22,876 nucleotides of DNA from a virus: the IMG/VR virus record IMGVR_UViG_3300048772_000511, positions 1 through 22,876 of that record. One strand, given 5' to 3'. The notes below the pieces were generated by a model that was given only the letters and a program-made list of their open reading frames with translations, was not told the DNA's origin and searched no databases. Position numbers and translations under genes: made by a program. Position 1 is the first letter of the stretch, and each line of letters starts with the position of its first letter. Shown here piece after piece: positions 1 through 22,198 of the stretch.

Positions 1-164
1 TCGCCCAGTCCGCCAGTGGCCAGATAATTCGTTCCGGTCGGCAGACACAAAATTGAGGAGTTCCCACCGCCATTGTGGTGGTAAAAGTAAATAAGGGAGT
101 TGGTCTGTGCCAGCAGCGAGCAGGGCATCGCCAGAAGGGTCAAGAGGCTGAGAAATTTTTTCAT
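1..164 (-). CDS. Partial exported protein at the left edge (N-terminus only)
   Basis: Only the first 54 codons are visible; the gene runs off the left edge. Translation starts MKKFLSLLTLLAMPCSLLAQ, a textbook Sec signal peptide with two lysines, a leucine-rich core and a likely cleavage near LLA|Q. The mature part begins with a Tyr/His/Asn/Gly-rich stretch. Its ATG overlaps the stop of the tail tip gene by one base (TAATG), so it belongs to the same late operon. In this position a tail fibre, a fibre accessory or a lysis protein would be usual, but an N-terminal Sec signal is not typical of virion proteins. Function is unknown. The start is well supported by the junction and the signal peptide. 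Confidence 0.7.
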   Translation of the reverse strand, partial: MKKFLSLLTLLAMPCSLLAQTNSLIYFYHHNGGGNSSILCLPTGTNYLATGGLG

Positions 165-3127
165 TATATGTTGAAAGTGTTTTTCAGAATGAATGTCGTG
201 GAAGATGTGACCGTGCTACCCGTGTACACATTCACCAGGATTGTGACTTTTTCCGTGATGGCAAAGGAGTCTCCCGTAACCATTGTTCCGCCAGGTGTGT
301 ATGTGGCAGGACCACCCGTTGATGTGAGCATCTTAAAGGGGACCAGTGACCCAGACGCATAGAGCTGGCTGCCGGAACCTGAACTCAATACGCCATTTTT
401 TAAAACCGCGCCGTTGCTGGTGAATTTTATCGTCGTACCTGGTGTGGAACAAAGGATGCTCAATGGCCCATCGGGAATAAAACGGTTCGGTTGAACCGTT
501 AGAACCCCCGAGATTTTTTGCGGCACACCGCTGTAATCCACAATCTCCTCGCCGTTACAGTCGAATAACTGAGGCAATGCGCTTTTGGCGGCGGCGTTCC
601 CCGTGACAACCACGTTAATATCGCGTTCGGTGACAAGGTTCGTGGAATCGCGCGCGATGAGTTTGATGGTCCAGCTCCCCGATTGCTCCACGCTGATCGA
701 GGTCTGAAAAGCCTGGGATTCGGTCGGGGCGAAGGTGATGTCCGAAATCGGACGGTCACTGGTTTCAGAGGACAGGCGCAGTAAAACTTTTAGCTCGACC
801 AAGTTGCCGTCGGGGTCATTCCAGGTTCCGGCGAGTGGTATCACCAGTGGGTATGCGGTCGCGGCGTACGTGGGCGCATAGCTCGCCGGCGCGGTGAGCG
901 TGAGGGTCGGCGCGCTGGCCGAGGCCAGCGGGAACATGAACGGTTCGCTGGTCGCATCGGATAGCGCGAGCTGATTGACGAAGGTGAAAGGACAAATGCG
1001 AAACTGCGCCTCCCAAGGCGACCGACCGGCGATGCGGTTGGCGCGGAGCTGGTCAAATAAACTGTGCGTGAAAAAGGAAAGCAAACCCGCCGGCATCAAC
1101 CACACCTCGGTGTTGGCCTGCGTGAACGCCGAAACGAACGTATTTTTCCGCCCGCGCAGCACGTTCAGCGTGTAAATCGGCTGGGCCGGTACTGCCCACC
1201 AGGTGGGGCTGCTGGCCGGCGTATTATTTTTATTCCCGGCGGCGAGACTGACGTATTGAACGCTGTTGCTGGTCACGACCGCGCCCAGGGCATAAGTGGT
1301 CGCGGCCGAGTACGCCGCACCGGCCAGCGCCTGCGTGCTCACCGAGCAGATTTCCATGACCTGGAATCCTGCGGTTTCTTTCACCTGGCCGGCATTGGCG
1401 CTGCCAGTGGGAATGGCTTGCACTAGAAATGCCAGCATGACGTCGTTGGCGGCATCATTGGCACTGGTCTGAATCGTAAAATAATCCGCGTCCACCTGCG
1501 TGGTATCCACGGCCACTTGAAGCGCGTTGGCCGTTGTGGCCACTGCGGCGGTCAAGGTCCCCTTCGCGGCAAAATTACTCACCGTGCCCAGATTGGAGGA
1601 AAATGTTCCCGCCGGATCGGTGTCGAAGTAAAGCGTCGCGCCCACGAGCAGATTGTTCGGTCGCTGGGCCAGACAGATGATGTCCCCACGCTCGCCCGCA
1701 AGCACGGTCGGCACGTCCAGAAAACGGAAGCTTGTAATCGGAGGAATCACAGGCGCAGACGTCGTGACTGGATCGCCGGCGTTGGTCCACGGGACTGCGG
1801 CCAGCGTATTGTCGGCGAAGACTTGCAACGTGATCGGCCCGGTCGGCGGTGTCTTCTTATTCGTGACGCGGAAAAACTGGTAAAGCGAATTTGTGTTCGG
1901 TTCCAGATCAATGTCCACGAGCACATAGTCGCCGGCGCGGATCGCACGGCCGATTTCGCGGCGCACTTCAAGTTCGCCGGTCATCTGCGCATGACCGATG
2001 ACGCGCAGGGTTTCCGTGCCGTGCGTCATGGCTTGCGCCGGCCGGGCAATCCACGGCCGGTCGAGACTCTGCTCACGGACGGTGCCGAGCACAAAAAAGG
2101 CGCGTGGGTCATCCACCTGCACGCTTGTCTGCTGATAGTCGAGCTGGCGGGAATTAAAGCGGATGGTCGCCCGGCTGATGGTTTCCTGCCAGCTCTTCGT
2201 CGTGAATTTTGGAAACTTGGTGAAGCTGTCGGCGGTCAAGGTGATATAGGTGCCGGCCGTTGGAACAACGCCGTGTTGGTAAACGCCGAGTTCAATCCGT
2301 TGTGTAAAAGAATTAAAGCGGATGTAGCCGTCGAACATCTGCGTCAATTTGTCGAACAGGCTCGTCACCGTTTCCGACGAGTCAATGAGCACGCTGGCAC
2401 CGTACATGGACTGATAGGCTTGCAGGTAGTCGCCGACGGCTTGGAAGCTCGCCGTGTCCAGCATCGTCGTCGGCAAGGCCAGACAATTTTGATCAGTGAG
2501 CAGTTCCGCCGCGACCGCCGCGAGATTCGCCTGGCCATCCGTGAGCGCGGCCGCGCTGTCCACAATGATGGACTGGGCGGGTTTCCGCCGTGTGACAATT
2601 TCCAGATTCGGGCCGGACTGCACTTCCTGACCCAGCAAGAAATCCATGATGACCACGTATGCGATGCCTTCGTAGTCCGGATGTTGGTCGCCGATCAGCG
2701 CGCCGCTCACGCCGCCGTCGTTGCCGGATGCATTAAGTTTCGGGTCGGCGGTTTGCGTGGGCAGCCCCCAATAAAAGCGCAGGACGCCGTAATAGGTGTC
2801 GTCAGAAGCCGTCAGGGAAAAATCATCGTAGGCTGCGCTGCCCCGCGTGAAGGCGTATTCTGCCCAGCCTTCCAGACCAGAGCCAGGCGCGTTGGCCGAG
2901 GTGGCGACATGTTGGACTGAGCACGTCCAAGTCTGCGCGTCAAATACGTACAGCGTCCCAACCGAGCAGGTGATGCCCACTGCCCAGGCGGTGCCTTTGG
3001 GCCAGACCTCATTGCCGTCGAGAATGATGGCGACCAAGGCATCCATCGGCCCGATGGCGACCGCGCCGGCCAACGTGCCGTAGTAGTTGTACGTCTTGCT
3101 TGCGCCGCCTGACTTTCCTCCGCCCAT
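164..3127 (-). CDS. Tail tip / host-specificity protein (gpJ-like)
   Basis: This 987-residue protein probably forms the distal tail tip that contacts the host. The N-terminus has a Gly/Ser-rich start and then YNYYGTLAGAVAIGP and ILDGNEVW, matching the 'Y.Y.a..a.aicegP' pattern of siphophage tip proteins of the gpJ/GTA gp15 type. The central part (about 200-450) looks like the tip core. Residues about 605-645 (YSAATTYALGAVV ... SPTWW) resemble a CBM5/12-type chitin-binding-like module. Residues about 738-845 look like an Ig/cadherin-like beta domain, with the motif TWNDPDGN. The last about 110 residues contain CSTPGTTIKFTSNG, similar to the chitobiase/hexosaminidase C-terminal fold. These C-terminal modules suggest glycan binding. 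The gene lies one base after the 62-residue gene and downstream of the NlpC/P60 and DUF2163 genes, the standard tail-tip order. Module names come from motif recognition only. Confidence 0.85.
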   Translation of the reverse strand: MGGGKSGGASKTYNYYGTLAGAVAIGPMDALVAIILDGNEVWPKGTAWAVGITCSVGTLYVFDAQTWTCSVQHVATSANAPGSGLEGWAEYAFTRGSAAYDDFSLTASDDTYYGVLRFYWGLPTQTADPKLNASGNDGGVSGALIGDQHPDYEGIAYVVIMDFLLGQEVQSGPNLEIVTRRKPAQSIIVDSAAALTDGQANLAAVAAELLTDQNCLALPTTMLDTASFQAVGDYLQAYQSMYGASVLIDSSETVTSLFDKLTQMFDGYIRFNSFTQRIELGVYQHGVVPTAGTYITLTADSFTKFPKFTTKSWQETISRATIRFNSRQLDYQQTSVQVDDPRAFFVLGTVREQSLDRPWIARPAQAMTHGTETLRVIGHAQMTGELEVRREIGRAIRAGDYVLVDIDLEPNTNSLYQFFRVTNKKTPPTGPITLQVFADNTLAAVPWTNAGDPVTTSAPVIPPITSFRFLDVPTVLAGERGDIICLAQRPNNLLVGATLYFDTDPAGTFSSNLGTVSNFAAKGTLTAAVATTANALQVAVDTTQVDADYFTIQTSANDAANDVMLAFLVQAIPTGSANAGQVKETAGFQVMEICSVSTQALAGAAYSAATTYALGAVVTSNSVQYVSLAAGNKNNTPASSPTWWAVPAQPIYTLNVLRGRKNTFVSAFTQANTEVWLMPAGLLSFFTHSLFDQLRANRIAGRSPWEAQFRICPFTFVNQLALSDATSEPFMFPLASASAPTLTLTAPASYAPTYAATAYPLVIPLAGTWNDPDGNLVELKVLLRLSSETSDRPISDITFAPTESQAFQTSISVEQSGSWTIKLIARDSTNLVTERDINVVVTGNAAAKSALPQLFDCNGEEIVDYSGVPQKISGVLTVQPNRFIPDGPLSILCSTPGTTIKFTSNGAVLKNGVLSSGSGSQLYASGSLVPFKMLTSTGGPATYTPGGTMVTGDSFAITEKVTILVNVYTGSTVTSSTTFILKNTFNI

Positions 3128-8949: not shown

Positions 8950-9846
8950 TTAATAATAATTTGTGGTGATGATCTGTACGCGGGCGACGGTTGTGGTCAG
9001 GTAGAGTTGCTGGCCGGCTAAAGAGTTGGAATTGTAGATGGCATTGAACTGGTTCTGGTCCGTCCAGGGGACCATGGCAAAATAATTTCCCACCGTGTTC
9101 GATATGCCCGAAAAGGGGATGTCAAAGTTGATGGAATTGCCGTAAATGCCCGGTCCGGGGCCATAACCGAGATTCATCCAACCGGCCTTCCATTCGTTGG
9201 TCGTCAAGTTGAGCGTGAAGGTGTTGGTGGGGATTTCTGGTCCGGTGTTCCCACCAACAACTTGTACTAAATTTGAATTTTCAAACACGCCTTGGTAAAA
9301 ATTAAAACCTTGGGGCGCGGTCAATGTGAGCGTCCAGCCGGCATTGGTGACAATTCCAAAATAGTTAGTGATCAGGATTTGTCTGATATTCGGCGCATTC
9401 GTCGTCAGAACCATCTGGCCGGAAAGGTTCGTCCCTGAATAATTCGTGGTCATGGTCATCTGGCCGGCCAGGTTTGTCCGCGAATAATTCGTGGTCGGGG
9501 TCAGTGCCCCGGACAAATTGGTCCGTGAATAATTCGTGGTCGAAATCACCAGGCTGGAAAGATTCGTGCGCGAATAATTCGTAGTCGGGGTCAGCGCCCC
9601 GGACAAATTGGTCCGCGAATAATTCGTGGTCGAAACCACCAGGCTGGAAAGATTCGTGCGTGAATAATTCGTGGTCGAAATCACCAGGCTGGAAAGATTC
9701 GTGCGCGAATAATTCGTGGTCAATGGCGCGGGGCCGACCACATTAGCCGGCGCGTTGGTGGTGAGGTCGGCGCGGGCTGGCCCGACCGTCCACAGCAGCA
9801 CGAACAGCATGAGCAGCAGCGAAAAAAGACGTGTGATTTGTTTCAT
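8950..9846 (-). CDS. Exported repeat protein (15-residue TTNYSRTNLS repeats)
   Basis: A 298-residue protein with a clear Sec signal peptide (MKQITRLFSLLLMLFVLLW, cleavage near ARA|D at about 26). Residues 43-147 are seven tandem 15-residue units of the form TTNYSRTNLS plus five variable residues (SLVIS, SLVVS, GALTP, GQMTM types). A C-terminal domain of about 150 residues is rich in Asn, Thr, Gly and aromatics, with segments such as GWTLTLTAPQGFNFYQGVF. I know no family for it. It sits inside the tail module between the small charged gene and the chaperones, and its TAA abuts the chaperone ATG. A 12-bp hairpin lies just upstream of its start. The repeats could form a beta-solenoid or fibre; that is inference. 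Confidence 0.75.
   Translation of the reverse strand: MKQITRLFSLLLMLFVLLWTVGPARADLTTNAPANVVGPAPLTTNYSRTNLSSLVISTTNYSRTNLSSLVVSTTNYSRTNLSGALTPTTNYSRTNLSSLVISTTNYSRTNLSGALTPTTNYSRTNLAGQMTMTTNYSGTNLSGQMVLTTNAPNIRQILITNYFGIVTNAGWTLTLTAPQGFNFYQGVFENSNLVQVVGGNTGPEIPTNTFTLNLTTNEWKAGWMNLGYGPGPGIYGNSINFDIPFSGISNTVGNYFAMVPWTDQNQFNAIYNSNSLAGQQLYLTTTVARVQIITTNYY
9406..9720 (-). repeat. Seven tandem 45-bp coding repeats
   Basis: Seven in-frame copies of a 45-bp unit within the exported repeat protein. Two sequence types (SLV[I/V]S and GALTP) partly alternate, giving a 90-bp higher-order period. Several copies are nearly identical at DNA level (shared core GAATAATTCGTGGTCG on the plus strand), suggesting recent expansion or ongoing slippage/recombination. 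The last two copies (toward 9406) are the most diverged. Confidence 0.9.
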
Positions 9847-10062: not shown

Positions 10063-10632
10063 TTAAGTGTTGGCCAGCAGGCCGACGGCCAGCGTGCTGT
10101 ACAGCACGTTGAATTCAAAATTCGGCGTCATGATGGCTCCCTCCTTGCTGCCCCATCCGCCGGTGATGCGGATTAGGCCGTACACGTCCAGGTTGGCGAC
10201 AAAGACGTCGTTCTGGTCATACAGTTCGGTGTGCAGCCATCCGCGCCGCGGGGCGGCCGCAGCCGGATTGAACACACCGCCCGCCGACGTCAGCTTCTGG
10301 CTCGTGCGGTAGAAGATTTCAAAGGCCAGCGCCTGAATTTCCTGCGTGGTAAATTTTTTGGTGAACTCCACGCCTTTTTCGATGGTGTTGTAATGCACCA
10401 GGTGGCCGGGAGCAGGTTTGTAAACCTTCGTGTCGCCGATGCTCTTCACATCGTCCGACCAGTCGGCGATGGCACCCAGGTCTTGGTAGAGCGGATCGGT
10501 GGGATCCGGTTTATTGGTGCGTGACGCGGCGGCGGCGGTGGAACCAGTGCCGGCGGCCGGGATGGTGATGAGATCGCCCTCGCGGAAAAAGAAGGCGTGG
10601 TGACCGAGCGAATAAGAACCGAGTACGAGCAT
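10063..10632 (-). CDS. Major tail tube protein (candidate)
   Basis: A 189-residue protein in the position of the tail tube subunit, after the tail terminator gene and before the chaperone/tape measure genes. It begins LGSYSLGHHAFFFREGD and later shows FTKKFTTQEIQALAFEIFYR and a C-terminal WGSKEGAIMTPNFEFNVLYS. The length and beta-rich pattern fit siphophage tube proteins, which are usually about 140-260 residues. I assign it mainly by synteny. The start is preceded by an A/C-rich leader rather than a Shine-Dalgarno. Confidence 0.65.
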   Translation of the reverse strand: MLVLGSYSLGHHAFFFREGDLITIPAAGTGSTAAAASRTNKPDPTDPLYQDLGAIADWSDDVKSIGDTKVYKPAPGHLVHYNTIEKGVEFTKKFTTQEIQALAFEIFYRTSQKLTSAGGVFNPAAAAPRRGWLHTELYDQNDVFVANLDVYGLIRITGGWGSKEGAIMTPNFEFNVLYSTLAVGLLANT

Positions 10633-10694: not shown

Positions 10695-11249
10695 TTAAAG
10701 TGTGGGACCGTTACCCAGCTCCGATTCCAGCCAGCCGCCCTTGCATTCCAGTTCAATGGCGACGGCGGCGCGGCCGGGCAGGTTCTGTTTGTCTGCCTTG
10801 TTTTTCACGATCAGCACGGACTCGTTGACCGGGTAACTGACCACGCCCGCCGGGTTGGGCAGCAACTGGCCGCTCACGGCCGGCACAGCCATGGCCGCGA
10901 GGGCAAAGGCCCCCAGATTATTGTCGTCACCATAGAGGGCGGCCGTGCGGTTGCCGAGCACGCGATCGGAAACGAGGATGTCCACCGGCAGCGACCGGCG
11001 GGTCAGCAATTTGCGCTGGCTGCTTTCCGTTTCCCAATGGGCATCCAGCGGCACGATCAGCGCCAGGCGCTGTTCGCTAATGAGCAGCAGTTGGAACGCC
11101 TCCAGGAGATTCTCGCTGTCGAACAGTTCCACGCGCTGGAAGAGCACGCCGCTTTTGTCCGGCATCTGCAGCGCCGTCAGTTGCGTTTTCAGCGCGGTGG
11201 CAATGGCCGTGACGCTGGCGAAATGGGCGGTGGCGGGGGTCATAATCAT
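10695..11249 (-). CDS. Tail terminator / Mu gp37-like (DUF1834-type) protein
   Basis: A 184-residue protein between the DUF1320 gene and the tube candidate, the slot of Mu gp37 and of the tail terminator in siphophages. It starts MIMTPATAHFASVTAIATAL, has an N-terminal helix and a mixed alpha/beta body with LLLISEQRLALIVPLDAHW and RRSLPVDILVSDRVLG, and ends in a beta-rich segment (GRAAVAIELECKGGWLESEL). The role would be capping the head-proximal end of the tail tube. The start at 11249 overlaps the upstream stop by ATGA; a second ATG at 11243 is possible. Family assignment rests on position and general pattern. Confidence 0.55.
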   Translation of the reverse strand: MIMTPATAHFASVTAIATALKTQLTALQMPDKSGVLFQRVELFDSENLLEAFQLLLISEQRLALIVPLDAHWETESSQRKLLTRRSLPVDILVSDRVLGNRTAALYGDDNNLGAFALAAMAVPAVSGQLLPNPAGVVSYPVNESVLIVKNKADKQNLPGRAAVAIELECKGGWLESELGNGPTL

Positions 11250-11641
11250 TCGCAGTGACTGGTCCGTCCGGGCAGACGGTGGCCACCGCCCCAGCGGCCG
11301 GCAATGGAAGCCTGGTTGGGATCCGCCACCTTGGGCAGATTGGGACGTTTGCCCTGGGCGATGTCCGTCAGTTCATTCCAGGCCGCATCGTAATTCTTCT
11401 CCACGTCCGGCGGGATCGGCCCCACCTGGCCATAGGCGCGGAACAAGGCGATGGCCCGGCCGAAATTGGTTTGGCTGGTGGCATCAATGACATACCCGGC
11501 CGTCAGGCGGGCCACATCCGCAGCCGCGCCATTGCAGATCCCCTGCAGCGCGGCATTCGCGCCCCCCGTGTCGCCGAGGGCCGTGGCCATCTGCGACAAC
11601 TTGTCGGCGGGAAGATTCAGGTCTGAAACGGAGAGTGACAT
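11246..11641 (-). CDS. Head-tail connector protein, DUF1320 / Mu gp36-like
   Basis: A 131-residue protein. The C-terminal half has the DUF1320 pattern: an inserted-loop helix (GYVIDATSQT), then VEKNYDAAWNELTDIAQGKRPNLP, matching the family's 'v..~y~~A~~~L~~ia~Gk~~L' ending. The N-terminus (LNLPADKLSQMATALGDTGG) is a short helical lead. In Mu-like phages gp36 follows gp35 and the capsid gene and precedes gp37, as here. It probably joins the portal to the tail or completes the head. ATGA overlap with the gp37-like gene. Confidence 0.7.
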   Translation of the reverse strand: MSLSVSDLNLPADKLSQMATALGDTGGANAALQGICNGAAADVARLTAGYVIDATSQTNFGRAIALFRAYGQVGPIPPDVEKNYDAAWNELTDIAQGKRPNLPKVADPNQASIAGRWGGGHRLPGRTSHCE

Positions 11642-11692: not shown

Positions 11693-11884
11693 CTATTTCG
11701 CCTCCTTTGCGGCTTTTTCCGGCTTCGCGGAATCTTCCTCCGAAGTTTCCACGGCCTGCTTGGTTTCGATAAGGATGAGCGCATCCTCCTCAGTGACTTT
11801 TTCAACGGAATCCTTTTTCAGGATCCGTCCTTTCCAGGCCACGTTGGCGAGGAGCTTGATTGCGATGAGTTTGGTTTTAGCCAT
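11693..11884 (-). CDS. Small Mu gp35-like protein
   Basis: A 63-residue protein: a short beta-type N-terminus (KLIAIKLLANVAWKGRILKK), then DSVEKVTEEDALILIETKQA and a Glu/Lys/Ala-rich charged tail. This matches the general layout of the small proteins found after the capsid gene in Mu-like phages ('...G.~~~~G~~~~v~e~~A~~Li~~g~A'), which often carry an acidic, low-complexity end. The likely role is in head completion, but this is not established. The start follows an A-rich leader (CAAATCAAAAAAAATC) without a Shine-Dalgarno. Confidence 0.6.
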   Translation of the reverse strand: MAKTKLIAIKLLANVAWKGRILKKDSVEKVTEEDALILIETKQAVETSEEDSAKPEKAAKEAK

Positions 11885-11917: not shown

Positions 11918-12457
11918 TTATTGGACGCTCTGCGAATACTGGAGCGACCCGAAAATGTTGTTGGATGCCGTCGTGCCAGTCGAGGTCGCCTGAATTTTCC
12001 GAATGTTATTGAGCACCGCCGGCGGCAGATTGGTCCAGAACGTGTTGGTGCTCACGCCCGCGCCGGCCAGAGAGACCGTCCAGACAATCGGATATTGCCC
12101 GGTGCCCTTGGTCCACGTCGTCCCATCGCCCGTCGTGTCGAATTTCACGGTGTAATTCGTTGTGGTACTGGCGATGGAATTGGTCTGCCAGACCGTCAGG
12201 AAGAGGCCCAGCCCCTGATTCTGACGGATCGTTTTGGCCAGTGTGTTGGTGCCGCCGGCCGTGAAGGTCTGCGTCTGGCCGCTGGTGAGGGTGAAGGCGG
12301 CCGCATTCGTGTCAGGAGTGACAAAGTTCGGCTGGCCGGTTTGATACTGTTGCGCTGCCGCCGGCAGCATGAACAACGACAACAGTCCGATGATGGCAAC
12401 AACCACGAGCAGTTGCGTCAACGTGAATTTGAAGGATTTGGTTTTAGAGAATCGCAT
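11918..12457 (-). CDS. Exported protein with prepilin-like N-terminus, next to the capsid gene
   Basis: A 179-residue protein. The N-terminus is basic (MRFSKTKSFK) followed by FTLTQLLVVVAIIGLLSLFM, closely resembling type IV pseudopilin leaders. The residue before the Phe is Lys instead of Gly, and position 5 is Gln instead of Glu, the two residues prepilin peptidase and pilus assembly usually need. After the hydrophobic helix comes LPAAAQQ, a plausible signal-peptidase I site, so it may have become a normal signal peptide. The rest is Thr/Asn/Gln-rich with a beta character (FTLTSGQTQTFTAGGTNTLA) and ends SLQYSQSVQ. It lies between the capsid gene (with a hairpin) and the gp35-like gene. Function unknown; a host-derived surface or decoration protein is possible. 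Confidence 0.7.
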   Translation of the reverse strand: MRFSKTKSFKFTLTQLLVVVAIIGLLSLFMLPAAAQQYQTGQPNFVTPDTNAAAFTLTSGQTQTFTAGGTNTLAKTIRQNQGLGLFLTVWQTNSIASTTTNYTVKFDTTGDGTTWTKGTGQYPIVWTVSLAGAGVSTNTFWTNLPPAVLNNIRKIQATSTGTTASNNIFGSLQYSQSVQ

Positions 12458-12485
12458 AGGTTATTTTTATTTTGTGGGTGAATAT

Positions 12486-12512
12486 GCGGCGGAGCCGGTC
12501 CGGCTCCGCCGC
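12486..12512 (-). other. Perfect inverted repeat downstream of the major capsid gene
   Basis: The 13-nt arms GCGGCGGAGCCGG and CCGGCTCCGCCGC are separated by one base, so the RNA would form about an 11-bp stem. It begins 7 nt after the capsid stop codon and is followed by ATATTCACC, with no T-tract. A stabiliser of abundant capsid mRNA or a partial transcription attenuator is plausible. Confidence 0.75.
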
Positions 12513-12519
12513 AGTAGGT

Positions 12520-13500
12520 TTAGCCGAGGCAGCCCTGCAGCACATAGCCGCAACCGGGAGCCACGATTTTTTCTGCGACGTAATGTTCGCCGCGATGGAC
12601 ATCGCTCTTCACCGTCTCGTCACGGTAGGTGAAGATGGACTGTCCGGCCGGTCCGCCGCCGGTGCCGGTCGCCGGGGCGGCGCCGCTGTCCAGCGTGGTG
12701 ATCTCGCTGGCAAATGCCGTCCAGTAGAACGTGCGCAGGAAGCACGGCACCTCCAGGTCGGCCGCCTCCACGTCCACGGTGAACGAGGCCTGATTACCCC
12801 AGATGTCCGAGGCCGTGTAGGTCTGGCCCTCGTCATTGGTTGCTTGCACGTTATAGGCCACCACCACCCGGCGCACGCCAAAGTAGGCGGCGAGTTTTTC
12901 CTCGTTCAAAATGCCGGGACTTACGTACTTGAACAGATCCACCAGCTTGGGATGCGTCTGCAGGACGAGAAACGTTGGTTCGTTGATCGTCATGGTAATG
13001 CTGCCCTTGCGCGTGCCGGACTGCTGACGGATGGCCGTGCAGGCCGCGTCCACGTCGCCTTTGGGATTGCTGGACGGATCATTCCACGGCACGGCAATGT
13101 TCGCGGTCTGCGCGGTCTGCACCAGGGCCACCACGCGCAAATCACGGTTGATGCGGATGGTGTCCACAATGCGCGAGACTTTCACCCGGTCGAGGTCGAA
13201 GTAATTCAAATATTTCTTGCGCTCTTCATCGGGGGCCGGGGCTTCCAGACCGTAGTTTTCGCAAGCATAACTGTCGCTGCTGACTTTCGTCTGGATGCGC
13301 TGGTACGGGGAACCCGGAGCGCGCGGTTTGAGGTTCGGCACGTTGGCAATATCCGCGGCGGCGAACTTGTAATAGGTCCCGCTTTGCAGCGGAGCCGGGA
13401 AGCGCGGACAAATGATGTCCGCGATGAACCCCTTCGGATCGCGCATGAACTGATTGGCGACGACCGTGAGGATCGGGTTGAGTGTTGCGGTTGTTTCCAT
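12520..13500 (-). CDS. Major capsid protein (Mu gpT-like / HK97-fold group)
   Basis: A 326-residue protein downstream of the protease/scaffold and decoration genes. Recognisable elements are an N-terminal arm (LNPILTVVANQFMRDPKGFI, then ADIICPRFPAPLQSGTYYKF), a long central region with DLDRVKVSRIVDTIRINRDL (E-loop/spine-like), the P-domain region TFLVLQTHPKLVDLFKYVSP, and FFGV/YNVQATNDEGQ followed by IWGNQ near the A-domain. The pattern 'np.l.~va~~y....~iad.~~P.v.v....~y~~f' is common to capsid proteins of this group. The size fits the smaller HK97-like capsids. The start follows an AAATAAAAT leader with no Shine-Dalgarno. A hairpin 7 nt after the stop may protect this abundant message. Confidence 0.88.
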   Translation of the reverse strand: METTATLNPILTVVANQFMRDPKGFIADIICPRFPAPLQSGTYYKFAAADIANVPNLKPRAPGSPYQRIQTKVSSDSYACENYGLEAPAPDEERKKYLNYFDLDRVKVSRIVDTIRINRDLRVVALVQTAQTANIAVPWNDPSSNPKGDVDAACTAIRQQSGTRKGSITMTINEPTFLVLQTHPKLVDLFKYVSPGILNEEKLAAYFGVRRVVVAYNVQATNDEGQTYTASDIWGNQASFTVDVEAADLEVPCFLRTFYWTAFASEITTLDSGAAPATGTGGGPAGQSIFTYRDETVKSDVHRGEHYVAEKIVAPGCGYVLQGCLG

Positions 13501-18606: not shown

Positions 18607-20246
18607 ACAAGGATTCGTGGACGAAAGATTCCCAGCCGGCCGGTGGCCGGTGCGCCGATGCGGATTTGTTTCAGCGTCTCGGCTGTGAGGGCGCCAGTTG
18701 AAAAATCCAGCGCATGGAGGGCCAGCTTCCCGCCGTCGAAGGTGTCGCCGTGTTTGCCATCGGCTTGCGGCTCGCAGACGTATGTGCCGGCCGATTTCAC
18801 CACCAGGCGATGATCTTCCTTCAGGTAGTCATCCGACGGCAGCGTCATCCGGTTGTCATTGATCGCTGCGGAATAGAGATCACCCAGAAAGGTCTTAAAG
18901 TTAGGCACACGGGCATAACCCACCGGGGCGGGGTCAACCGTGTTGCTGGCATTCACCAGGTCAAAGGGGATCATGCTCCCCAGCTCCTGCGCCGTCTCAC
19001 GGGCGAAATACTGCTCATTGGTCGCATCAATGCAGAACCGCTGCGCGCCGCCTGCAGGACTGAGTTGGACGGCCTGGATAATCCGCGCCAGGCGTTCCCG
19101 TGCGACTTTCGGTTCGCGCTCTTTCCAAATGATCACCGCCACCTCGACATATTCCATGCCGCGTTTTTGCATCACGGTCACGCAGGTCGGATTGCTGGTG
19201 TCGTTGGTCGTGGTGGCCACGTCGCAGCCGATACCGGTTTTATCCTTCGTGCAATTCTGTACGATCCACCGCAGGGCCACCTGAAACTCCAGCTCGTTTT
19301 CAACAAAGAAAAATCCGCACTGACCGATACCACGGCGCTGTGCAGTTGTGAGCGCAAATAAATCAATCGCCGCTGCGCCGCCGAACTTGTGAATTAGCCG
19401 GTAGCTCTCGTCCAGGCCAAGCCGGTTGGCCGGGTCAGCGCAAAATTGATCGTAGGTCAACGGCTTGCCTTCACGTGTGTCGTAAAGAACGTGCCCGGCC
19501 GCGTAGGCGTCGCACAACGCAACACGATGAATCAGAATCCCGTTCTGCCCGCGATAGAAATGGCCATTGGCGTCCGGTGGGAATTCCATGCCGGGTTCCG
19601 GCAGAGTCATTTCAAAAAACGGATGCCGGTCATCCCTGGGCAGGTTCGACGCGTAAATCAGCTTGAACGTCCGGTCGGTATCCATGATCGGCTTGACGGC
19701 AATCTGCAGGTCGCGTTCGAGATTCGGATGCGTGAACCCGGCCTCGTCGCGGACCACCGTGCCCGTCCAGCCGCGGGCCGTCGCCGGATTCGGGGCGATC
19801 ACGCGCAGCCGCGAATAATCCGTGCGGTTGTGGTACAGCCGCATTTCCAACCGGGATGAGCGATACAGGTCCGTGAAATCCTCCGTGCTCAAATTTGTGT
19901 AGAGTTTGCCCGTGTCGGAATTGGCGCACTTCAACGGCATGGCGTTGGCCTGCGAAGATTCGTTCATCGTCATCTGCAGCGCGGCCGCCTCGCGGGTGAC
20001 CAGGGACGCCTGCTCGGCCGAACTCAATGTCTTGCTCACCAGTTCCGAGCCGGTCAGCAGCGACGCGCTGGCGGCAATGACATTGCGGCCCGACTCGCGG
20101 GACATCTCATCAAACGCGATGTCGCCCAGTGTGGTGGACTTCCGGCACTGCCGCGCCCAGAACAGCACCATGCAGCGGACCTTGCGGACCGCGACCAGCG
20201 CGACTTTTTGGTAAAGCCGGCGAGTCCAATGTTTGGTGGCGTTCAT
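18603..20246 (-). CDS. terL: Terminase large subunit (Mu gp28-like)
   Basis: A 547-residue DNA-packaging ATPase-nuclease. A P-loop-like motif lies at residues 31-38 (ARQCRKST, compare the terminase '[SA]RQvGKS'); the usual glycine before the lysine is Arg here. Walker B with catalytic carboxylate is TVVRDEAG (163-170), and a coupling-motif candidate follows at LIYASNLP. The RuvC-like nuclease half contains GIGCDVATTTN (D342), FCIDATN (D407) and DTFDGGK (D504), which fit the metal-binding acidic residues. The start abuts the small terminase stop (GAATAAATGA), the same junction used between the gp26-like and gp27-like genes. It ends in ATGA with the low-GC ORF. The length is normal for this family. 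Confidence 0.9.
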   Translation of the reverse strand: MNATKHWTRRLYQKVALVAVRKVRCMVLFWARQCRKSTTLGDIAFDEMSRESGRNVIAASASLLTGSELVSKTLSSAEQASLVTREAAALQMTMNESSQANAMPLKCANSDTGKLYTNLSTEDFTDLYRSSRLEMRLYHNRTDYSRLRVIAPNPATARGWTGTVVRDEAGFTHPNLERDLQIAVKPIMDTDRTFKLIYASNLPRDDRHPFFEMTLPEPGMEFPPDANGHFYRGQNGILIHRVALCDAYAAGHVLYDTREGKPLTYDQFCADPANRLGLDESYRLIHKFGGAAAIDLFALTTAQRRGIGQCGFFFVENELEFQVALRWIVQNCTKDKTGIGCDVATTTNDTSNPTCVTVMQKRGMEYVEVAVIIWKEREPKVARERLARIIQAVQLSPAGGAQRFCIDATNEQYFARETAQELGSMIPFDLVNASNTVDPAPVGYARVPNFKTFLGDLYSAAINDNRMTLPSDDYLKEDHRLVVKSAGTYVCEPQADGKHGDTFDGGKLALHALDFSTGALTAETLKQIRIGAPATGRLGIFRPRILV

Positions 20247-20801
20247 TTATTCGGGCAATTTCACCGCACCGGATTTTTCCAATTCGTCCACGTCGGCGAA
20301 GTGATGCTTGCGCAGCATTCGGATTTTTTCCTCGTTGGGGATGTTCAACTCCACGATGCGGTTGGTCTCCTTGTCGTGGACCGCCTTCAAAATTTTCTCG
20401 CAGGTCTGATACTCGAATTCCTCGCGAGCCAGCTTGAGCGCCTCGCTCTTCGTGTGCGCATCCTTGATGCGCTTCCACGTGAGCGAATCTTTCTCCTGGA
20501 TGGCCAGCGCGGAAAAGAAGAGCTGGCCGGCCACGTCGAGTTCCTGTTGCGACAGCGCGGGATTGCTGCTCTTCAAATCCTCCAGCACCTGGGCCACGGT
20601 GGATTCATTCCGGGCCAACTGTTGCCGCAGCGAATACCAGGACAAGAAACCCGACAGCGCGCCGATCGAAGTCTGCACGCTGTCTGCGCGCAGCCATTTC
20701 AGCGTCTCGTCGAGCGAATGGTCGCGCGCGTAGAACGCAATGGACGCCTGCCGCTCTTCCGGCAGCGTCTTCAATTTTGCGTCTGAACGGGGCTTGCTCA
20801 T
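20247..20801 (-). CDS. Terminase small subunit / DUF3486 (Mu gp27-like)
   Basis: A 184-residue, mostly helical protein immediately upstream of the large terminase. It opens with a basic N-terminus (MSKPRSDAKLKTLPEERQAS), then AFYARDHSLDETLKWLRADS and SIGALSGFLSWYSLRQQL. This matches the DUF3486 pattern in which an HTH-like unit ('Lp...r..l......s..e....l......s.sal.ry...') recognises DNA. The remaining part is coiled-coil or helical (LTWKRIKDAHTKSEALKLAR), as expected for oligomerisation. In Mu, gp27 is the small terminase partner of gp28. The junctions with both neighbours are TAA directly followed by ATG. Confidence 0.78.
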   Translation of the reverse strand: MSKPRSDAKLKTLPEERQASIAFYARDHSLDETLKWLRADSVQTSIGALSGFLSWYSLRQQLARNESTVAQVLEDLKSSNPALSQQELDVAGQLFFSALAIQEKDSLTWKRIKDAHTKSEALKLAREEFEYQTCEKILKAVHDKETNRIVELNIPNEEKIRMLRKHHFADVDELEKSGAVKLPE

Positions 20802-21400: not shown

Positions 21401-21681
21401 TTGGTATTGGGGGTTGTGTTGGCTGTCGGCCGGGTGCCCTCACCCGGCGTTTTAAAATCGTTCACGGCGGCCGGATTCCAAACCAGCTTGGCCAAAATCA
21501 TTCCGATGCCGCCGTGTTGAATCACAAACTCGGCCGCGTTGAATAGCCAGGCATTGAGGTTGCGAATCTCGCGCCCCAGCCAGGCCGCACCAATCGCAAT
21601 GGCCGGCAGCCATGGCGTGAGCTGGGCCTTGGCCTCTGCGGCCACGGCGGCAACCTGTTGGACTTGGTTGGTGTCAAGCAT
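21397..21681 (-). CDS. Small membrane-associated protein, holin-like candidate
   Basis: A 94-residue protein with two moderately hydrophobic segments, about 22-35 (LTPWLPAIAIGAAWLG) and about 49-65 (AEFVIQHGGIGMILAKLVW). An N-terminal helix of Ala/Gln/Val and a hydrophilic, Thr/Pro-rich C-terminus flank them. Two membrane spans, small size and position before the packaging genes fit a holin, but no endolysin is visible in the window to support a lysis module. It overlaps the DUF1353 gene by 8 bases and the gp25-like gene by ATGA. Confidence 0.5.
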   Translation of the reverse strand: MLDTNQVQQVAAVAAEAKAQLTPWLPAIAIGAAWLGREIRNLNAWLFNAAEFVIQHGGIGMILAKLVWNPAAVNDFKTPGEGTRPTANTTPNTK

Positions 21682-22198
21682 GGGAAAATTTCTTTCCGTC
21701 CTGATACCAGGCCAGCCAGCCGAAAACTGTCACGTTGAAATAAATCAGCAGCGATTTGGCCAGGCCGCAGCCATTGGCCAGCATGGCCGTGAACAAAATC
21801 CAGTCCCAATAAAACTTCATCGTCCATGGTTCGCCGCCGAACACACGTCGGTAGCCGTGGTCATGAATTGTCGCCGGCGCGTCGAGCTGGTCATCACCGT
21901 TCAGATCGTCCGCCAGCCAGGCGATGAGAAATCCAAGCCCGAAAATCACGATTGAAAATTCCGCGCGCCACAGCGATGGGAAAAAACTATTGAGCAAAAA
22001 CGCCAGCGCCATCACGATCGCACCGAGCCGGGACAGCGACGGGATGGAAGCGAAGTCCGTTACGAATCCTTTATCAACACGATGATAAAAGCCGGTCGGA
22101 TCGCGGAACAACAAAGAATCGTCGAGCCGCCAATTTTTGCCATCCGGTAGCGGCGTGACTTCCAGCGAACTCAAAAATTTTGCAGGGCCGGTATTCAT
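21674..22198 (-). CDS. DUF1353-family protein with two inserted membrane segments
   Basis: A 174-residue protein. The family marks are GFVTDFASIPSL ('fvtDfaSiP') and DAPATIHDHGYRR ('a...HD.ly'), separated here by about 60 residues. That spacer carries two hydrophobic stretches (AIVMALAFLLNSFF, about 60-73; SIVIFGLGFLIAWLA, about 82-95), and another hydrophobic segment follows near the C-terminus (LLIYFNVTVFGWLAWY). Typical DUF1353 proteins are about 100-130 residues and lack the spacer. They often lie near lysis or structural genes in phages; their function is not settled. It ends in an 8-base overlap with the holin-like gene and starts one base after the 63-residue gene. Confidence 0.65.
   Translation of the reverse strand: MNTGPAKFLSSLEVTPLPDGKNWRLDDSLLFRDPTGFYHRVDKGFVTDFASIPSLSRLGAIVMALAFLLNSFFPSLWRAEFSIVIFGLGFLIAWLADDLNGDDQLDAPATIHDHGYRRVFGGEPWTMKFYWDWILFTAMLANGCGLAKSLLIYFNVTVFGWLAWYQDGKKFSHA

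Follow-up and report, generated by a model that had tools for sequence, protein, structure and literature searches.

Prepilin peptidase needs Gly, or rarely Ala or Ser, at position -1 of its substrates. The particles of tailed phages are assembled in the cytoplasm, and no exported decoration protein that attaches to completed particles is known to us. Small phage proteins that are exported include the superinfection-exclusion lipoproteins Llp of T5 and Cor of phi80. The Mu-like siphophage JBD30, for which type IV pili serve in infection, encodes the decoration protein gp39 after its major capsid protein (MCP) gene (PMC11445458). Phages of P. gingivalis carry genes with signal peptidase I (SPase I) leaders that expose Gln, and their capsid proteins have signal-like N-termini thought to be cut by a prohead protease (PMC10367356).

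The whole stretch of DNA analysed here (the window) is a 22.9-kb IMG/VR virus record of 22,876 nt whose minus strand carries packaging, head and tail genes, probably those of a Mu-like phage. The assignment to Mu-like phages is based on the MCP, which has relatives in RcapMu, RR1-B and other phages; the early region lies outside the window. The gene of interest encodes a protein whose leader has F1, hydrophobic residues at positions 2-21 and P22 in common with type II/IV pseudopilins of PVC bacteria (N_methyl, PF07963). Unlike these, the protein lacks Gly(-1) and Glu5, has a predicted SPase I site at the end of the leader and continues into a beta-sandwich rather than a pilin domain. Like T5 Llp and phi80 Cor it is small and predicted to be exported, but it has no lipobox and occupies a late position in the capsid operon. 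It shares its neighbourhood, between the MCP and a gp36-like adaptor, with JBD30 gp39 and RcapMu43, which have neither an export leader nor sequence likeness to it. Sec/SPase I leaders, several with Gln at +1, also occur in the P. gingivalis phages (Nixviridae), but these have other hosts, and the part of their description used here mentions no pilin-derived leader and no link to slots beside MCP, tail or J genes (PMC10367356).

We propose that the product of this gene is an accessory protein, made late and exported, in a clade of Mu-like phages whose hosts are Verrucomicrobia. The leader would descend from the N-terminal helix of a host pseudopilin; with Gly(-1) lost in the phage lineage, prepilin peptidase should not cut it, and a predicted SPase I site sits just after pilin Pro22. 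Judged from sequence, the precursor probably enters the Sec pathway, is cut at AAA↓Q (the arrow marks the predicted cleavage point) and releases a soluble beta-sandwich of 144 aa into the periplasm. Made beside the capsid protein and held in the periplasm, this product could then meet particles at lysis and serve as a virion-surface adhesin or decoration loaded outside the cytoplasm, a role that we put forward tentatively. To the whole of this explanation, an exported accessory protein with a pilin leader and a virion-surface role, we give a probability of roughly 0.4.

Gene neighbourhood, relatives and hosts

The main features of the locus are as follows.

11918..12457, minus strand: gene for the 179-aa precursor, directly 3' of the MCP gene
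12353..12457, minus strand: leader, residues 1-35, MRFSKTKSFKFTLTQLLVVVAIIGLLSLFMLPAAA, most likely pilin-derived, ending in the predicted SPase I site AAA↓Q
11918..12352, minus strand: mature domain, residues 36-179 (11921-12352), and stop codon; predicted all-beta sandwich, family unassigned
12520..13500, minus strand: MCP, 326 aa (phrog_1005, E 1e-51)
12485..12513, minus strand: perfect GC-rich hairpin in the gap between the MCP and leader genes (-28.8 kcal/mol, no T-run)
11693..11884, minus strand: 63-aa gene whose family resembles the start of RcapMu43 (weak, by alignment)
11246..11641, minus strand: probable head-tail adaptor resembling Mu gp36, 131 aa (weak PF07030 match, E 0.027, and gene order)
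10063..10632, minus strand: probable major tail protein, 189 aa (gene order only)
164..3127, minus strand: J-like tail tip protein, 987 aa (from its place in the gene order and its resemblance to the genes of relatives)

An open reading frame is present at exactly 11918-12457, on the minus strand, which the earlier note had left unstated; a plus-strand reading was rejected as its translation is meaningless. The frame has a codon log-likelihood score of 66 despite an overlapping antisense frame, and profile and protein searches placed homologues at the equivalent position in ten further phages (L001, L003, L005-L008, L010 and L054-L056), which together indicate a real gene. The search for the same gene in other phages, suggested earlier as a check, shows a homologue as the first gene 3' of the MCP in each of the 11 phages examined. 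A conserved slot adjoining the MCP (11/11) is what would be expected of a capsid decoration protein. Equivalence to JBD30 gp39 was considered and dropped, since RcapMu43, which directly follows the RcapMu MCP, is nearer to the downstream 63-aa gene. That 63-aa gene may already fill the decoration slot; JBD30 gp39 itself gave no useful alignment.

The MCP and leader genes are separated by 62 bases. Hairpins of differing sequence occupy this gap in the window, L001, L005, L006 and L007 (-26 to -44 kcal/mol) and are absent from five other phages tested. As they have no T-run, they perhaps act in mRNA processing or stability.

The hosts are very likely Verrucomicrobiota, given that L008 is a contig of a metagenome-assembled genome named Verrucomicrobia subdivision 3 and that PVC-type genes stand on the contig of L010. 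The latter is located towards the edge of a contig of 107 kb (G109:C108), whose interior piece (40-60 kb) encodes what we take, by eye, to be PVC-type DUF1501 and DUF1549/1553 proteins; a presumed MuB-like ATPase, likewise recognised by eye, is found at ~81 kb. Only 2 of 293 genomes of the same order carry the gene. A match in human faecal sequence MT838545 was rejected as a fragment with true pilins and ribosomal-protein-like genes.

Pilin likeness and predicted processing of the leader

The N-terminus of the window protein reads MRFSKTKSFKFTLTQLLVVVAIIGLLSLFMLPAAAQ, and the motif on which the earlier note had based its comparison with pseudopilins corresponds to residues 11-30. With its cleavage point the leader is KFTLTQLLVVVAIIGLLSLFMLPAAA↓Q. 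It keeps F1, the hydrophobic stretch 2-21 and P22 of the pilin profile, with Gly(-1) replaced by Lys and Glu5 by Gln. To measure this likeness we used a leader HMM built from eight host pseudopilin leaders, with 500 shuffles of each leader as controls. The window leader scored 25.5 bits against a shuffle maximum of 9.3, which bears out the closeness to the pseudopilin consensus that had been claimed for it, and ten ordinary signal peptides of the same phages reached at most 3.0 bits. Pilin-like leaders were found in 8 of the 11 members, the relatives scoring 37.8 (L055), 24.5 (L007), 24.1 (L006), 23.5 (L010), 21.9 (L005), 18.7 (L054) and 15.0 bits (L001); in each case the shuffles never attained the score of the leader itself.

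Further comparisons gave the same picture. The L055 leader, alone among the 11, passes the Pfam N_methyl model (PF07963; 23.1 bits, cut-off 21.2), NCBIfam pilin models match the N-terminal part only (E 0.0036), and a PDB search with the family profile ranks geopilin first, again through the leader only (E 0.0028). A pseudopilin leader in host genome G006 is 61% identical to the window leader over 23 residues. The phage 'pilin' families phrog_27437 and phrog_3433 also match the leader, and we rejected a functional meaning for phrog_27437, which says little about function, as its matches are driven by the pilin leader and take in host pseudopilins in 368 of 384 host-class genomes.

Both losses described earlier are seen: position -1 is occupied by K, N or S in all eight pilin-like members, and Glu5 is absent from the window copy, although it is kept in three relatives (L010, L054 and L055). 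The remaining three members (L003, L008 and L056) have different leaders, in which a hydrophobic stretch at the N-terminus is followed by a basic loop and then by another hydrophobic stretch that leads into the mature domain. L010 has a second stretch of this kind behind a first one that is pilin-like, and is 61% identical to L003 over a region that includes both, which indicates that this long form is a real gene product. The non-pilin leaders of three members, and the rapid divergence of leaders generally, would fit convergence of hydrophobic signal peptides rather than descent from pilins. We regard convergence as highly improbable, because the position-specific scores lie far above those of shuffles and control signal peptides, the spacing of F1, L3 and P22 is kept, Glu5 persists in three members and one member passes N_methyl. 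The survival of Glu5, the N_methyl match of L055 and the disappearance of Gly(-1) likewise support the earlier suggestion that a host pilin leader was captured and changed. Most likely, the leader derives from a host pilin and has been rewired from prepilin-peptidase to Sec/SPase I processing.

The AAAQ sequence had been named as a likely SPase I site, and the PAAA↓Q context agrees with this. A basic n-region, a hydrophobic core and small residues at -3 and -1 are all present in the window leader. The site is conserved in kind throughout the family, with small residues at -3 (A/V/C) and -1 (A/S/G) in 11 of 11 members and Gln at +1 in nine. Since an SPase I-compatible site is also found in the three leaders that do not resemble pilins, predicted Sec/SPase I export, rather than pilin likeness, is the conserved property. 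These signal-peptide calls come from sequence rules and a home-made predictor, a crude one that also flagged two JBD30 proteins and a few clade proteins, probably falsely. On such features, predicted export of the window protein is well supported, and the absence of Cys at the cleavage site means that it has no lipobox.

Pilin Pro22 stands at -4 of the cleavage site in most members with a single leader, and a host pseudopilin has PALA↓RAK at the equivalent site. With A-x-A already present there, a new SPase I site would have needed little change, and the A-x-A pattern may be partly inherited from pilins. The probable conversion of a pilin leader into a secretion signal can be followed through intermediates: some members retain Glu5, none retains Gly(-1), and a predicted SPase I site lies beyond Pro22. 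No report of pilin-derived Sec leaders in phages was found in the literature searched, which took in a minority of subscription papers.

A leader left uncut by SPase I could instead act as a membrane anchor, or as an abnormal subunit that jams the host type IV pilus or pseudopilus. The conserved pilin helix and the Glu5 of three relatives would suit such a function, and JBD30, a Mu-like siphophage, adsorbs to type IV pili (PMC11445458). We nevertheless consider an uncut leader quite unlikely: Gly(-1) is lost in all, an AxA-type site, mostly with Gln at +1, occurs even in members without pilin likeness, and there is no pilin-like C-terminal domain.

A Q-rule has been given as a trait of Bacteroidetes (PMC5837995). 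The same rule was considered for the hosts and dropped, as Gln stands at +1 in only 5 of 40 host SPase I candidates (rough counts from 295 host-class genes). Among the exported phage proteins, compared with these candidates, Gln at +1 is common.

Signal-peptide genes in three slots

Codon-based gene calling combined with a strict signal-peptide rule located signal-peptide genes in three slots of the clade: one follows the MCP (slot A), one separates the major tail protein from the tail assembly chaperone (slot B), and one surrounds the J-like tip gene (slot C). The earlier note had not recognised that its gene occupies one of three such slots. In addition to the gene beside the capsid gene, the window contains two of these.

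8950..9846, minus strand: second signal-peptide gene, slot B, MKQITRLFSLLLMLFVLLWTVGPARA↓D followed by TTNYSRTNLS repeats; similar to pentapeptide-repeat phage proteins
1..164, minus strand: third signal-peptide gene, slot C, MKKFLSLLTLLAMPCSLLA↓Q..., cut by the window edge

Most clade members have genes in the fibre locus that carry Sec-type signal peptides (window 1-164, minus strand; G001 40295-41935; G609 35262-40529; G611 26794-29817; oriented-contig coordinates). The gene directly after J has a signal-like leader in the window (where it is edge-cut) and in G001, G004, G005, G006 and G609. In G002 the gene after J is without a signal and the next but one has it; in G610 the gene after J is again without one and two signal-peptide genes precede J; G611 has one such gene near the end of the tail module. 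A tail-module protein of G609 (30389-30919) carries a signal peptide ahead of a domain that begins at Met in its homologues in G002 (29575-30003, 37% identity) and G611 (21531-21971, 27%; oriented-contig coordinates). A signal-peptide protein of G001 contains DAATKKYVD, which we take, by eye, to be a fibre-like motif. Slot B of L001 encodes a melibiase-like protein (weak Pfam match), and the exported proteins in slots B and C include some that are, in our judgement by eye, SGNH-, LamG- and alpha/beta-hydrolase-like.

In RcapMu, the annotated spike and fibre genes after J are without signal peptides, and none was found in the structural genes of RR1-B that were examined. Verrucophage P8625 is reported without signal peptides (PMC4642752), and the trait is therefore not shared by all phages of this phylum.

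These slots bear on the idea that the window protein belongs to the ordinary head proteins and has its hydrophobic N-terminus taken off by a phage prohead protease. Its head-operon position would agree with this, and such cutting has been proposed for capsid proteins of P. gingivalis phages (PMC10367356). Against it are classical three-part export leaders of unrelated sequence, which occur both in this gene and, at a distance from the head genes, in slots B and C; the strong pilin likeness also speaks against it, and we judge it very unlikely. The earlier note would have abandoned its view had relatives shown an ordinary head segment at the N-terminus; they carry export leaders, three of them not pilin-like.

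The motif (T)TN(Y/F)SRTN(L/I) recurs in signal-peptide proteins after the major tail protein, also in L001 (10569-11243) and L007 (11694-12410), and is repeated in the window and L001 copies. N-x-S/T motifs are mildly enriched in slot B proteins.

The mature domain and its possible roles

AlphaFold2 run on the 11 mature sequences returned an all-beta sandwich (pLDDT 74, pTM 0.72). Foldseek matches to it are weak (TM at most 0.44) and include birnavirus VP2, TNF-like lectins and phage tail proteins; no sequence match to known decoration proteins was found, the likeness in fold being confined to weak beta-sandwich matches. Full-length models of moderate confidence have a helix at residues 13-28, then a linker and the beta-sandwich, with no pilin head domain. 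As modelled, the mature part is an uncharacterised beta-sandwich and not a pilin domain. It has too few conserved stretches for a mature-only profile scan of viral contigs. A glycosylation signal was considered and rejected, as N-x-S/T motifs are not enriched (1 against 3.1 expected).

The leader gene and the MCP gene have not evolved together in all members. The MCPs of L005, L006 and L007 are 85-87% identical to one another (L005/L006, 87%), whereas the mature part of L006 is only 51-53% identical to those of L005 and L007 (53% to L005), which are themselves 84% identical. This discordance between sequences indicates that the leader gene is swapped independently of the MCP. Contact with the host surface would explain such swapping no less well than a virion role.

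The protein could indeed be exported yet act on the envelope of the cell that produces it, as a lectin-like protein, either periplasmic or released, by which receptors or glycans are masked, so that superinfection is limited or fewer progeny are lost to cell debris. The Sec/SPase I leader, the replacement of alleles independently of the MCP, the weak TNF-like lectin matches and the slot B and C neighbours (the melibiase-like protein by its weak Pfam match and the presumed SGNH-, LamG- and alpha/beta-hydrolase-like proteins) would all suit this function. Exported genes of P. gingivalis phages are also thought to alter host envelopes (PMC10367356). We hold envelope masking to be rather doubtful: the late capsid-operon position speaks against it, it leaves unexplained why such genes are paired with MCP, tail and J genes, and the protein has no lipobox or outer-membrane anchor.

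We lean towards loading onto virions rather than masking because of this same pairing and because some proteins of slots B and C have fibre-like sequences. Signal-peptide genes are found again behind the major tail protein and about the J-like gene, the places in which relatives have their fibre genes. That the gene is swapped independently, and that precedent is lacking, count against virion loading. The clade-wide occurrence of Sec signals directly after capsid, tail-tube and tip genes raises the question of why they are there. If parts of the particle are exported, the completion of virions in the periplasm or after lysis, along with folding or modification in the periplasm, would be a new step for a phage. 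A broader reading, in our view fairly unlikely, is that a clade of Mu-like phages of Verrucomicrobia exports its capsid-, tail-tube- and tip-linked surface proteins through Sec, with leaders derived partly from host pilins, and finishes its virions outside the cytoplasm.

Two minor features of the relatives were also seen. MCPs with an N-terminal extension ahead of the usual TATLNPI start occur in L010 (76-1161) and G002 (19575-20633; oriented-contig coordinates), of which the L010 protein was called signal-like under a loose rule but was rejected under the strict rule. Small cold-shock-domain-like genes (VKWF...KG[FY]GFI) lie inside the head/tail operon of several relatives (L006 11034-11264; L010 2435-2695; G609 25221-25448; L055 9817-10023; L056 10062-10280).
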